Shown piece by piece: positions 4,053 through 14,263 of a stretch of DNA of 64,000 nucleotides (within the stretch, counting starts at the first letter, position 1; the number at the start of each line of letters is the position of its first letter). Both the position numbers and the translations under genes were made by a program. Source of the stretch: Cloeon dipterum (taxonomy: Eukaryota > Arthropoda > Insecta > Ephemeroptera > Baetidae); assembly GCF_949628265.1 (NCBI RefSeq), contig NC_088789.1:5882886-5946885 (forward strand), read 5' to 3'. The notes below the pieces were generated by a model. It did no database searches. It saw only the letters and a program-made list of their open reading frames with translations, and was not told where the DNA came from.

Positions 4053-7000
4053 CCTTTTATATAGTTCATTATCAGAAGGGGCTTGTCTTTCTTCTTAGCC
4101 ACATAAGTAAGTGAGACGTTCTAAAATAATGACAAAAGATTTTTAAAAAGCTATGAAAATTATGTAACTTTATTTTGAATTGTAACATACTTATTTAAAA
4201 AGTTTAAATATATCTTCTGTTGAGTGCATATTTGCTCGATCTTTTAATTGGCTGGCTCTGCGAGACGCCATTTTTAATGCAGACCGCAGAGGAGTACGAA
4301 ATCAATGCCATCCAAGATAAAAAATTCATCTAGTTTTTGCTATTTATTTTAACTACTATAACGCATGAAATGGTTTTGAATGTGGTGTTCGTAAATATAG
4401 CAAAACTGGAAGGGTATATTTATTGAAAGGCGATAAGTAACGTTTAACTAGAAAAATCCGCCTATTACTGGCCGCCTAAATGAAATTTGCACGCGGATGG
4501 TAAGTGCGAAGGTGGAACTCACGTCACAGCGCCACATGCAGCGTAGGCGAAGGCCCCGCGTGCGTCGTCAGAATTAATACGGGCGTCGCGAAAATTGTTT
4601 TGGCCAGACTTATTTTCCGCTTGATTTGCTTGCTCGCCGGGGAAAATTCAGCATCTCATGTAAATGTGGTGTGAGCGCACACGCAGACGCGCGCGGCGGC
4701 AGAAGAAAAATTATAACTGCACCTTTTGCGGTATGGGAGTAATTGCATTTCGTTTTTGCTCTACCTGGAAACGATTATAATTGCTTTGCCAGAGAAAAAT
4801 TGTACTAAAACTCTCCTAAAATTACAGATGAGCCAGCATTCAGGAATTCGTACATTACAAAGTTGTTTGGTTGTTTTTGAAATATTTTGCAAAAATCTGA
4901 ATTTCTAGGAAGTTTTAGTAAGGGTGCCACTCTAAAAGGATAAAAAATGAAGTTAAATTAAAATTTTAATCACTCTCATCCTTCCATTAAATTCAAGAGG
5001 CTAAGATGGCTCTTGATGTTCGAAATTATGAAAAAAATCGTTTCTGTGACTATTCTCTACCTAACAACGAGTTAGTTAACCAAAATACCACTGAAATAGA
5101 AAATTTTAAAACAAAACAAAGAATCACTCTTTGTGTCTCAGGTGTTGACTAAATAAGTTTGGTTCTGTAAAACAACCAAAAAATATTTACTTAGCGCGTG
5201 AAAGGGACAAGCATGCACTCTAAAAGCAGTATTTTATGCTTTACGAGCGCGTCTCAGCGTATTTTGTAACCTTTTTATCAGTTTGCCTATTAATGGTAGA
5301 CGACCTTCGTCAAGGAAAAGTAGTGTTCAAAAGTCTCCCGGAGACCACGAGATGGTACATGATCTTTATTTGAAAGGCCTCTCCACTGCTGGAAAGCCAT
5401 TTCGAAAAAAATTCCTGCTCAAGCGAAACTGTGCGACAAAACGAGCAGTGCGGCGGGCGCTGTGGCTGCACGTCCGGTTGTGTACATTTTCGAGCGCGCG
5501 AGAGGAGCAAACGAGATTTTTCGCCTCGTAAATTTGACCAATTAATTACACACACGGTCAGAGAAACCTATTATTACGCTGCCAATCATAATTATATTGG
5601 CCGAATATCCAGCAGCCACCACCAGAGAAAAGGTTGCTCGCTCAGCAGATTTATGCTTGTCCAGTGAGCCTCGAGTGGTGAAAAGTTTATTTGGTATTTA
5701 ATGAAATTTTTCATTAGCAACTACAGAACACAACACTCATATAAATAATGGGAAAACGACAGATATGGTGGTTCCTTTTTCCTGTCCGCAACATGTGAAA
5801 CTACGTGACGACGGAAGAGGCACACGAGCAATGCATTTGTTCTCGTTTTGCGCTTTTCATGCTGGTGAGCGCGGCTTTTCCACAAAATTGAAATGACGTG
5901 CGTTCAATTAAAAATGCTCTCTAAAGAAATATCTTTTGCACTATTAATTAGAAAGATATGTTTCAACCAATGATGAACATCACTCGGTTAATTGTTAATG
6001 TATTCAATAATTTCCCATTTTTTAATATAGAAAGACATAAACAAGTAGAAATATTATTTTAATTTTTTCGGGATTTTTTCTGCCTCTCAAATGCGAAATA
6101 TATTAGAATTATTTTATATAAAATTAAAAAAGTCACTCTCTTGACAATAATGTACCTATATTGAGTCTGGTTTGTAATACACAATTTTATTTCCTCAAAA
6201 TTACAGACTCCACGTGCATTCCGAATGAAGATTATTTTACTAAAAGGTTAAGCAAAGAAAACTTTAACATTTTAAGACAAAGTAAGATACACACACAGGT
6301 TTAATTTTTAAATTTAAGAAAAACTGAATGGCTATCTACTCTGTTTGAAAAATTAATTCTGATTCAGAACTCTCAGCAGCTATTAATACTCATATGTGGT
6401 TATGAATTGAAAGAACATGTTATATGATTTTTCCTCCACTATTAGCTAACCGTCTAGAATTAATTTTCCACACTGTCTCAAGCCATCCAGTTTTCTTTAA
6501 ATTTAAATTAACCAGCATACTATTGAAATTGAGGTCACCCGTAAATGAAACTTTCAAATACTCAATTCTGCTTTTAAAATATTAGGTATATCATTTAAAA
6601 AAATATAAATATTTCTGAAAAATATTATTGCTCACTTGCTAGTCCCCTTGACATGATAATTATGTGGATCACGATTTATTTTGTCAAGCGAGATTAACAT
6701 CACATTTATAACTTTCCCTCGATCAACTTCCTTGTGCGCGTCCGCCGCGCGTTTTGGAGACGCGAATTAGGGGCACCTGTTGATTTACGACCGGCGAGCG
6801 GTGGAATTTACGGCCCATATAACAATTACGCGCGCCCATGCATTATTAATAGTGGAATACACACAACACCCAAACACTCATCGGCACAGCAGCGTTTTAC
6901 AAGAATTTCGGCGTGAGGCTCGTATGTGCGAATGGGCCTTTCAATTATTTGCTCCCGCGGCTCGCGTGCTTTTTCGCTCAGACAGGCAATAAATAAGAGA

Positions 7001-7979
7001 CAATAATTAAATGAGCAAACTATTCTGCTCTAGAACCAAAAAGTCAAACATGAAACTATCAACGAACATCGTGATAGTTAATCTATGGTGCTATTTTGAA
7101 ATTGCCAAAATTATGATAGTTATTGTGTTCTAATTGGATCTTTATGTAAATTTTCGAAATGATTTTGACGAATTGTGAATTTAGCACTCGAATCAGACAA
7201 ATAACATAATTAAAAACAAATCTAAAATCGTTCAATTCAATTATTATACATAGTGGGAATCATTTAAATAATTTATATTTGTTTATAATTGTTAAGCTTT
7301 GAATAAAATTAAATTACTCTAAGAGCTATGATTTATTTATTTTTCTAATTTCAATCGCAATCAGGCGAATAAGAGGGATTATGTAAAATATTATTTTACC
7401 AGCTTTTCCGCCACTTGTGGCTTTTTCCTTTAAAGCTTTTTTGGTCTCCAGCTTCAGAGCTTGGTGAATCACAGGTTTTTAAATTAACTGTAGAAAGAGA
7501 GAGGAAATTGAGGTCCCATTTTTGCTGATTTGGAAACAAGGAATTAGAAACACAATTTTTCTTTGTTTAAGACATGACCGTATCCGAAGAAAAATTAGAC
7601 AAGTCATATTTCTCTTCAGGATTTTGATTCAAGGAAAATTTCTAAACAAAATAAAGTGAATCTCACTTCCTGGCACCTTAAAATCGACCGAGAATATCTA
7701 ACAAACCGCCAAACTGTATCAACAAACAAAATACGTTATTATTAACTAAGAGCACAATTTCTAATTTATGTAATAATGGGGCGTGACGTTTTTTTCGCGG
7801 AAACCCCGCCTCAAACGACGTTTCCAGGATTTGGCAAGAGAAACGAAACTTCTCCGCAGCAAATTTCGAGCTGATCTATACCACGAAAAGCAGCAAATGC
7901 GGCAAAAGCGAAAATATAGTTTGATTCTTCCGAGTACGTAAGCGCGCGAGTCGAATTTCCTCACACCTGAACGCGCCGC
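4053..7979. other. Noncoding stretch with CpG-richer blocks
   Basis: Blocks at about 4480-4740, 5200-5900 and 6700-6990 stand out from AT-rich filler. Apart from repeat B (6441-6510), nothing recognisable is present. Confidence 0.45.
6441..6510. repeat. Dispersed repeat family B, copy 1 (about 70 bp)
   Basis: TAACCGTCTAGAATT[AT]ATTTTCCACAC...AGCCATCCA is shared with 8690-8755. Confidence 0.65.
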
Positions 7980-8450
7980 GGCTAATTACACTTAATCACC
8001 TTCCGCGTACTCATTAGGTCGTAGAGACGGCCTTGGCCGCTCTTGAACTGGGGCCCGGACGGGGCCCGGGTCCGCGTGGGACCGTGGGACTGTCACTCAC
8101 CTTCTTGCGGGTGCAAAAAGCAGCTGTCCGTCGTCGTTTTTTTGAAGCCGAGAGGAAGCGGGCGCAGCGAGAGGCAGAAACGGCGGCGGCGGCTGCTCTT
8201 GCACTCACGTCAGGTCGGCTGCACGACTCGCGCTGCGTCAGGGTCGGCGAGTACCTGCGCCGGACCCCAGAGGGCGTGGGCCCGCCCCTGAGCGCGGGGC
8301 GGGCGTTCTCCGGACCAATCGCCGCCGCCGCGCACCGATCGCAATTAAAGCCGGCCGCGGCGTGTTTGCTTAATTAATTACAACGCGCGGTTAATTGCAC
8401 GCGGCGACGGCCTGCCGACGAGCCATAAATTGCAATCAGATGAAGTTGTG
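7980..8450 (-). promoter_or_regulatory. CpG/GC-box island, candidate minus-strand promoter and leader exon
   Basis: A strongly GC- and CpG-rich block in AT-rich DNA. Reading the minus strand it has ATTGG (inverted CCAAT) near 8320, GC boxes (CCCGCCCC and GGGGCGGG) at about 8279-8310, and then two donor-like sites, GAC/GTGAGT near 8206 and AAGAAG/GTGAGT at 8101/8100. That order fits a housekeeping-type promoter with a noncoding or short coding first exon transcribed leftward. No downstream exon was recognised, so this remains tentative. Confidence 0.35.
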
Positions 8451-11780: not shown

Positions 11781-12227
11781 TTTGATATTTAAACATGAAC
11801 TAAATTGGATATTGGAATGCATAAAATTAAAGTAAGGTTTACAGAATTTTTGCTGAAATCCGACACAAGCATCAGTTTTAAATTATGTATAGTTGTAGTT
11901 GTTGTTGACCTTATTGCCTAGGTTTCTTTGAATTTTAGGAATTTTCTCGCATTAAAGTGTGTAACAATAAAAAGATCTCGAGGAAAAATTTAAAATATAA
12001 ATCACAAAAATAGCAATATATGGAGTGTAAAAAAGTGTTCAAAATAAAGGCATTATAGGACATTTTCCGTTACACTGTAACTAAATAATCTCAATTTGAC
12101 ATGGATAAAGCATGTCAACGACATTTGACAAGGTTTATCCTTGTCACGACAAGGATTAAACTAGTCAACGACCTGATGACAAGTTTTACCCTTGTCATGA
12201 CAAGGATAAAACTAGTCAAAGTTCTGT

Positions 12228-12690
12228 GACATGTTTAAAACGTGTTGCGATGAGAGGTTTTAACCATGTCAAAGTTTCCTGATCAAATTGACATGGTTAA
12301 AACGTGTCAAAAACGTGATGATAAGTTTAAAACGTGTTGCAATGAGAGGTTTTATCCATGTCAAGATTTCTTGCTCAAAATGACATGCATAAAACTTGTC
12401 AAAGGTCGTTGACATGTTTAAACAGTGTTGCGATGAGAGGTTTTAACCATGTCAAAATTTCCTGGTCAAATTGACAAGGTTAAAACTTGTCAAAAACACG
12501 ATGACATGTTTGAAACGTGTTGCAACGAGAGGTTTTATCCATGTCAAATTATCCTACTCAAAATGACAAGTTTAAAACTTGTCAAAACGCGATGACATGG
12601 TTAAGACTTGTTTCAACGACACGTTTTATCCATGTCAAAATTTCCTGCTCAAAATGACATGTATAAAACTTGTCAATGATATGACGCGGT
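12228..12690. repeat. Five tandem copies of a 91-92 bp unit inside the TIR element
   Basis: The marker GTGTTGC (TTGTTTC in copy 5) recurs at about 12242, 12334, 12425, 12517 and 12608, spacing 91-92 bp. Each unit contains GACATGTTTAAA-like, GAGAGGTTTTA[AT]CCATGTCAA and TTGACA[AT]GGTTAAAACTTGTC-like segments. Confidence 0.85.
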
Positions 12691-13385
12691 TTAAACTTGT
12701 CAAAATGACATGTTCTATCCTGCTTCTAAAGCTTTTCTTTAATTAAAAATGATTAATTTAATTGATTGGATTGCTCAGAACTAATGAAGAAATTGGGGAA
12801 AGGAAATCAACTCTGTAACTACACATGACTCAACTTGTGGCACTATAGGGTTAGCGGGCTAGCAATCCAATTTAGAAAAGCATAGGATGAAAAGGAGGCA
12901 AAAGCATCAGTGGCGCTAGTATCGATATAGTAGGCGTAACATTGGAAGGGACAAAGTGAGGAAAACGGCAACCTCGCGTGAACTTCAAATCTCAGATGAA
13001 AGAGAAGCCCAACGGTCGACAGCGGAAAACCATGAAGAATTTGGCTGCGCGAGAATGTGCGGTGCTCGTTGTGAAAGCCGCGCGATGCTTGATTAAGATA
13101 TAAGAGGTAGGACGTCAATGTTTCATAAATATGATTTATTTTGTAATTCGATATAATGCAAATAAATGTAATATTGTAATGTGGCGGCCAGCATGCACCA
13201 TGGGCGATGGGTGGCGGGGCGGCCGCAGCGGTGTCGGCCACTAGCGGGGGCGGTGGGCCAGCGTTGGCGGCCAGCACTGGGTCGGGGGCTGCGAGCATTG
13301 GGGTGGCCGCAGCAGTGGCGGCCAGCGTGCGGCGGCCAGTACCGGGAGCGGTGGGGCAGCAGGCCGGCAAATGACGCTTCTCAAT

Positions 13386-13433
13386 TTGACAAGTTTGTTC
13401 CTTGTCAAATTGACAAGTTTGTTCCTTGTCAAA
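13386..13433. repeat. Two perfect 24-bp palindromic repeats
   Basis: TTGACAAGTTTGTTCCTTGT followed by CAAA occurs twice in direct tandem (13386 and 13410). Each unit is itself an inverted repeat, TTGACAAG...CTTGTCAA. Confidence 0.85.
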
Positions 13434-13573
13434 TTGACAATTTAAGTACAGGGAAGGCGGCCGCATTGGCAGCGGCCAGCGTGCAGCGGCGGCGGGTTGG
13501 CAGGCCAGTATGTATGTCGCGGCGGCCAGCGGCCAGCGTGCGGCGGCGGCGGGGCGGCTAGCAAGCATGCAGT

Positions 13574-13613
13574 GACTAGGATAAAGCTTGTCAATTTGAC
13601 AAGCTTTTTCCTA
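13574..13613. repeat. Palindrome with 20-bp arms inside the TIR element
   Basis: CTAGGATAAAGCTTGTCAA is followed at once by TTTGACAAGCTTTTTCCTAG, its near-perfect reverse complement. Confidence 0.85.
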
Positions 13614-13675
13614 GAGTCTAATTTACCCATTTTAAATAGGGTTAATGCGGGCGCTATGGAAGCGTAGGTCACAGC

Positions 13676-13773
13676 GGCCAGCGTGCGGCGGCCAGCGTGC
13701 GGCGGCCAGCGTGCGGCGGCCAGCGTGCGGCGGCCAGCGTACGGCGGCCAGCGTGCGGCGGCCAGCGTAGCAG
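13676..13773. repeat. GC-rich minisatellite, seven copies of a 14-bp unit
   Basis: GGCCAGCGTGCGGC repeats at 14-bp intervals from 13676, with minor variation in the fifth and seventh copies. It lies within the GC-rich centre (about 13180-13790), where GGCCAGC-like words are scattered. Confidence 0.9.
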
Positions 13774-13830
13774 TGACAAGGATAAAGCGTGTCAAATTGA
13801 CAAGCCTAAGGCTGGTCAGCGACCATCTTT

Positions 13831-14130
13831 GACAAGGATAAAGCATGTCAAATTGACATTTACCGCTTGACATGCTTAAAGCATGTCAGCGACCGTCTTT
13901 GACAAGCCTAAGGCTGGTCAGCGACCATTTTTGACAAGGATAAAGCATGTCAAATTGACATTTACCGCTTGACATGCTTAAGGCATGTCAGCGACATGAT
14001 GCTTTGACAAGCCTTAAGCTAGTCAAGAACTGTCGTTGACAAGTCTTAAGCTAGTCTAAAGCACAATGTCGCTGACAAGCTTTAAGCATGTCAAGCGGTA
14101 AATGTCAATTTGACATGCTTTATCCTTGTC
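13831..14130. repeat. 102-bp direct repeat with palindromes, right part of the TIR element
   Basis: The block beginning GACAAGGATAAAGCATGTCA at 13831 recurs at 13933, including the palindromic TTGACATGCTTAA...CATGTCAG and GACAAGCCTAAGGCTGGTC segments; a third diverged set runs in inverted order into the right terminus. Confidence 0.8.
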
Positions 14131-14263
14131 AAATTGAGATTATTTAGTTACAGTGTAGGATTTTTTGGGTCAGAGCAAGATTGAGTACTGTCGGTCTGTG
14201 CCCTTATGGCACTGCCCATTTTTTTCAGTATATTATTATTATTTTGCCATGGCTTAGAACATA

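Follow-up and report, generated by a model that had tools for sequence, protein, structure and literature searches.

The termini of CACTA/EnSpm DNA transposons are typically CACTA or CACTG. According to the available text of PMC6004678, CACTA elements have CAC...GTG ends and generate 2-bp target-site duplications, and the combination of CACTG ends, 2-bp duplications and mirrored subterminal repeats is a known design of the CACTA/CMC group in the parts of PMC6004678, PMC8978399 and PMC2613891 that could be consulted. In maize En/Spm, as far as the accessible part of PMC2613891 reports, the subterminal repeats are needed in cis and are recognised by the TNPA protein, while defective copies move in trans.

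The element discussed here lies in a window, i.e., the whole analysed stretch of 64 kb (C4:5882886-5946885), of a 190.1-Mb insect genome assembled in 10 contigs. Five matches above the cut-off to 7tm_6, an insect-specific odorant-receptor family, point to an insect host. It occupies window positions 12073-14155 (2083 bp), has CACTG...CAGTG ends, and is flanked by TA on the left (12071..12072) and on the right (14156..14157). The left terminal inverted repeat (12073..12118, forward strand) starts with CACTGTAACTAAATAATCTCAATTTGACA and is 98% complementary to the right one (14110..14155, reverse strand), which is the reverse complement of the left end and terminates in ...TTAGTTACAGTG. Thus, the 46-bp termini with a single mismatch and the TA flanks that had been claimed in a preliminary description hold, and the 48-nt pair 12071-12118 / 14110-14157, which includes the TA, is likewise 98% complementary.

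Adjacent to the termini are two arrays of a 21-bp palindrome. The left subterminal array (12097..12702) comprises 19 sites with a 7-bp spacer and includes a period-91/92 array of 4.9 copies (12227..12676, forward strand) with several palindrome sites per copy; the right one (13774..14131) comprises 11 sites and encloses 2.2 copies of a 102-bp repeat (13797..14025, forward strand), sites being counted in both arrays at up to 3 mismatches. Between the arrays are an internal low-repeat segment (12720..13180), in which no conserved coding frame was recognised and which is common to all eight genomic copies described below at 98-100% (in two pieces in the 3.9-kb copy), and a GC-rich core (13180..13770; GC 0.54-0.67 in the 150-bp bins that extend over it). 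The core contains 2.7 copies of a 24-bp palindromic tandem (13377..13440), a hairpin (13576..13614; 19-bp arms with a single mismatch, loop of one base) that runs into the palindrome sites starting at 13573 and 13597, and 6.8 copies of a 14-bp GC minisatellite (13674..13768, forward strand), the array length of which varies between genomic copies. The anatomy initially listed was thereby recovered, with the array of 92-bp units measured as 4.9 copies at period 91 and the hairpin arms as 19 bp.

Among the open reading frames checked, no transposase frame was recognised inside the element, in agreement with its earlier portrayal as a terminal-inverted-repeat element lacking a transposase. A 255-aa reverse-strand frame over the GC-rich core was not taken as a gene, because it is repeat-derived; it is shorter in the two other copies listed. 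Across the 64-kb window, no tRNA genes were found and no Rfam model reached its gathering score.

A genome-wide pattern search with the 28-bp end at up to 3 mismatches returned 18 matches (16 exact and two with 2 mismatches) and none in controls. The 16 exact matches are both ends of eight copies, and all 16 ends begin with CACTGTAACT. Six of these copies are 1967 to 2315 bp long, and the remaining two measure 3903 and 12133 bp. Pairwise divergence among the copies (28 pairs) averages 1.65% (0.4-2.5%) in the left 846 bp and 0.8% (at most 2.0%) in the right 257 bp; given this low divergence, the family is young. The lengths of the arrays differ even between near-identical copies.

The two long copies owe their length to other elements nested inside them. 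The 12.1-kb copy (C4:24997286-25009418; L009/L010) looked autonomous by its length; the extra ~10 kb in its right part is read as a nested LTR retrotransposon, with a 649-aa gag-like frame that gives a weak, below-cut-off match to a CCHC zinc knuckle (E 0.00074) and 445-bp direct terminal repeats that are 100% identical, which implies a very recent insertion. Likewise, the 3.9-kb copy (C2:35916582-35920484) was dismissed as an autonomous candidate, its extra length being a different DNA transposon of 1.79 kb (L011:1847-3635) with CCCGCACAG...CTGTGCGGG ends and a TA duplication, for which the window copy serves as the empty site. The CCC ends of this nested transposon (CCCGCACAGAAAA) resemble those of the animal TRC branch of the CACTA superfamily.

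A sister subfamily, the termini of which (CACTGTATCT) differ from those of the window subfamily, was recovered with 50 genome matches to its ends (CACTGTATCTAAAATGRGTCAA) at up to 3 mismatches, compared to one match in controls. Four sister copies of 1280-1887 bp have nearly identical ends (21/22) and matched flanks, and they share the layout of terminal repeat, palindrome array, low-repeat segment, GC-rich core, palindrome array and terminal repeat. Along C5:2.55-2.61 Mb, seven sister right ends are found. A run of long elements was rejected there, since the one stretch read (L046; C5:2552701-2562000) is an 8-kb segmental duplication with one sister right end per unit and 99.9% identity over 1243 bp. 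There may be a third subfamily, judging from ends of greater divergence (CACTGTATTTAAAATAARTCAG and similar) that cluster at C1:40727795-40916285. In the neighbourhood of related-element copies (L017:1-2508; L022:1154-2686 and 6575-8146), there are also long ankyrin-repeat frames, one of which has a NACHT-type domain, and a pair of similar ankyrin frames about 5 kb apart.

The flanks of the element and its relatives define the target-site duplication. Matched 2-bp flanks occur in all eight copies of the window subfamily (TA, CA, TT, AA or TG) and in all four sister copies, the duplications among these 12 being TA in five, CA and TG in two each, and TT, AA and CG in one each. This tally comprises the window subfamily and the sister copies only; two further related copies were left out of it, namely L024 (558 bp, with ends less alike), where the flanks are matched (TA/TA), and L025 (1094 bp, with two good ends), where they are not (TG/TA). 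With both added, 13 of 14 related copies have matched 2-bp flanks of six different dinucleotides, TA accounting for 6 of the 14. Because the pairing of sister-copy ends scored matched flanks higher, these four copies form a slightly favoured sample; the count of eight out of eight in the window subfamily is unaffected. As seven of the 12 copies carry CA, TT, AA, TG or CG, a fixed TA target is excluded, and the TA initially proposed as the duplication is correct for the window copy and not for the family.

Empty sites provide further information on the insertion boundaries. The genome was searched for the joined flanks of each of the 12 sites, and 40 of 3185 candidates were scored. Empty sites were obtained for three of the 12 junctions: that of the 12.1-kb copy (15 matches), that at C1:38131983 (20 matches) and that at C2:1980214 (five long matches). 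The last junction is also crossed by five shorter matches on the opposite strand, and the one remaining match of the 46 crosses no junction. At C2:1980214, where the match extends just 16-31 bases beyond the junction and the aligner had misplaced the right flank, the letters were compared directly. Five paralogous empty places were compared, each having a single copy of the two base pairs between continuous flanks. For the other nine junctions, including that of the window copy, no empty site was present among the 40 of 3185 candidates scored. The ends thus mark true points of insertion, with a 2-bp duplication that has no fixed sequence. The copy count and the alignment of empty sites, which had been proposed as checks, hence turned out in favour of a mobile element, with eight copies and clean 2-bp insertions at three empty sites; these copies and their exact boundaries exclude, for the family, both a single-copy locus and false ends.

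The aligned palindrome sites conform to one odd-length dyad of 21 bp, approximately TGACAWG-NTTWAAN-CWTGTCA. For TGACWWG-N7-CWWGTCA, the element contains 18 exact matches, 30 at up to 2 mismatches and 34 at up to 3, the latter distributed over the left array (19), the middle (4) and the right array (11). Against these 30 dyads, 20 first-order Markov sequences averaged 0.1, in keeping with the earlier notion of dozens of palindromes built on one word; in all of the rest of the 64-kb window there are four. Half-sites at up to 1 mismatch number 79, compared to a Markov mean of 19.7 and a maximum of 31 (n = 100). Among spacings of 0-19, a spacing of 7 accounts for 30 matches and spacings of 12 and 15 for nine each—which are probably cross-matches between neighbouring sites—while all others yield 0-3 each. 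At up to 2 mismatches, the four sister copies hold 16, 23, 23 and 27 dyad sites; spacing was tested in one of them, where 27 of 33 matches have the 7-bp spacer.

Constraint on the palindrome arms was assessed from the variation between copies. In the left array, with sites defined on any copy, 8 of 309 columns vary in the arms versus 15 of 195 elsewhere (Fisher p = 0.014); when the mask was shifted circularly, 32 of 657 positions gave a value as low. In the right array, no difference was seen between arms and other positions (1/98 vs 2/110 with eight copies; 2/140 vs 1/150 with seven copies). An earlier count of 3/266 in the arms vs 20/261 elsewhere, for which the sites had been defined on the window copy alone, is biased and is not relied on. 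Constraint on the arms is suggestive at best.

Transposase_21, when searched against the genome, had a single weak match, which lies inside an uninterrupted 693-aa CACTA-type transposase-like frame at C4:32404567-32406489 (L029:844-2925); its matches to DUF1258 (E 0.0012) and Transposase_21 (E 0.0014) are both below the curated cut-offs. Searching the genome with 641 residues of this frame returned 28 matches of 24-100% identity, most of them divergent. Judging from these 28 matches and the below-cut-off resemblance of the query frame, putative CACTA-type transposases are many in this genome. All 28 are more than 100 kb away from each of the 68 end matches (18 of the window subfamily and 50 of the sister subfamily), the nearest distance being 103.7 kb, and around the five of the 28 for which the surroundings were read, there was neither a CACTGTA/TACAGTG end pair nor an array of the element's own dyad. 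Within these 28 matches and five surroundings, no autonomous partner with the element's ends was found, nor, accordingly, the autonomous relative with the same terminal inverted repeats that the preliminary description had proposed to look for. The 693-aa frame and its relatives at C1:42674365 and C3:9650743 were discarded as partners, as no CACTGTA-type end pair is nearby; in addition, no CAC-type terminal-repeat pair occurs within ~3.4 kb on either side of C4:32404567, apart from an unread gap of 184 bases. Possibly, this frame and the related matches are host-held genes.

Two other findings concern the surroundings of transposase-like frames. An apparently intron-bearing transposase family (L050/L051, two fetched of four look-alike matches) has a right end that reads inward CCCAGCAG, also given as CCCAGCAGAAAATC, and at this end, the one visible (L050:5798-6274), a GAGCAAG/CTTGCTC word recurs in both orientations in 102-bp and 62-bp arrays. 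This CACTA-like family thus seems to have a subterminal array of similar architecture, in which another inverted word is repeated. Beside the frame at C3:9650743, the piece L052 contains four dyads at up to 2 mismatches, compared to a Markov mean of 0.33 and a maximum of 2 (n = 100), and the 1.5 kb neighbouring it contain four more. Seven of these eight dyads are one 2-mismatch look-alike word, close to TGACAAATTTCAGGCTAGTCG, that is carried in both orientations by a 177-bp satellite-like repeat (C3:9645501-9647770; L058 and L052:1-770) about 3 kb from the transposase frame, with no CACTGTA/TACAGTG pair there. The repeat is taken, without proof, to be unrelated to the element's palindromes; it may be the own subterminal array of the C3:9650743 transposase.

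The CACTG ends, the 2-bp duplications and the subterminal direct and inverted repeats together lead to the CACTA/EnSpm (CMC) group. All 16 ends of the eight copies have the form CAC...GTG, and a duplication in the 2-3 bp range without fixed sequence is present in 13 of 14 copies and confirmed at three empty sites. The element fits CACTA/CMC on every structural feature tested, with the link to a transposase missing. It is, therefore, very probably a non-autonomous cut-and-paste transposon of the CACTA/EnSpm (CMC) type, the palindromes of which are putative protein-binding sites. By analogy with the CACTA system, a CACTA-type transposase made elsewhere would cut and rejoin the CACTG ends in trans; the same or an accessory protein would bind the 21-bp palindromes of both arrays as a dimer, and the dimer-bound arrays would bring the two ends together. 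The arrays and minisatellites may grow and shrink by slippage or unequal exchange, as suggested by the different array lengths of near-identical copies. Counting against this placement are the failure to find a partner, the look-alike repeat near C3:9650743, the unmatched flanks of L025, the CCC instead of CACTG ends of the animal CACTA relatives in PMC1636069, and the weak constraint on the arms.

The last point bears on how the palindromes act. While the element would still move as a transposon, its palindromes could operate through DNA or RNA hairpins or through repeat expansion rather than as protein sites, which we regard as unlikely, albeit with an appreciable residual chance that is raised by the weak arm constraint. 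Both ends fold very strongly as single strands (z -12.2 on the left with 20 shuffles, z -17.1 on the right with 100 shuffles), and array lengths vary between copies; however, palindrome arrays must fold strongly, so that folding by itself does not show hairpin use. Selection for hairpins would also tolerate other loops, whereas the odd-length dyad has a dominant 7-bp spacing that is kept in the sister subfamily—an argument that is not decisive, since the spacing could also have been preserved simply because the arrays have a common ancestor. The preliminary description had offered the palindromes as possible transposase-binding sites; their arrangement fits such putative sites.

As to the class of the element, membership in another superfamily, such as Tc1/mariner with its TA target or Chapaev proper, is improbable. 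It is true that TA is the commonest duplication (five of the 12 copies, the window copy included, and six of 14 with the two additional ones), but the other dinucleotides in seven of the 12 copies are at odds with the fixed TA of Tc1/mariner. Chapaev belongs to the CMC group and shares the CAC...GTG ends with the element; however, the accessible text of PMC4079192 gives duplications of generally 3-4 bp (TWA for Chapaev3), as opposed to the 2 bp at the empty sites described here. In part, this alternative is a question of naming, since, according to the available part of PMC4455052, Chapaev and Mirage have become part of EnSpm in Repbase. A slightly smaller, slim chance is assigned to maintenance of the family by a CACTA-type transposase outside any element with these ends, e.g., a stationary, host-held one such as the C4:32404567 frame, in which case the ~34 dyads per element, including those in the middle, would be an adaptation to capture a scarce protein in trans. 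An assembly artefact or an immobile single-copy repeat is of negligible probability and is refuted by eight full copies at different places, with flanks and duplications of their own, and by the empty sites for three of 12 junctions.

With the reading as a non-autonomous CACTA/CMC-type transposon, the family offers a clean and young case of CACTA subterminal repeats in an insect; the consulted portions of the papers cited here deal with such repeats mainly in plants. The 21-bp dyad at its dominant spacing is a specific prediction of where an animal CACTA-type transposase or its helper would bind; apart from that, this is an ordinary non-autonomous transposon family. In the accessible parts of the literature on animal and insect CACTA elements, subterminal repeats and palindromes, no description of the family was found. 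The label "undescribed-looking" is justified at the family level at most, while the design is the known CACTA/CMC one (available parts of PMC6004678, PMC8978399 and PMC2613891).

Among the described systems, the CMC-NA_1 and CMC-NA_2 elements of wasps and polydnaviruses resemble the family in having CAC...GTG ends, a 2-bp duplication, no coding capacity and no autonomous partner found, and for CMC-NA_1 also a paralogous empty site, as far as the text available from PMC6004678 goes; the miniature elements reported there are 116-422 bp long, whereas the present one is ~2 kb with extensive palindromic arrays and a GC-rich core. With the animal TRC element SmTRC1 (accessible text of PMC1636069), the common features are membership in the CACTA superfamily, an animal host, 2-bp duplications, terminal inverted repeats and a tandem-repeat region; SmTRC1, in contrast, has a CCC core at its ends together with Transposase_21, while the CACTG ends of the present element place it outside TRC. 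Plant CACTA elements produce 3-bp duplications in the part of PMC8978399 consulted, unlike the 2 bp found here. The putative binding arrays are likened to the TNPA repeats of maize Spm/En by description and not by letters (available text of PMC2613891). Unlike in maize En/Spm, the unit of the present element is one 21-bp dyad, repeated ~34 times and found also in mid-element.
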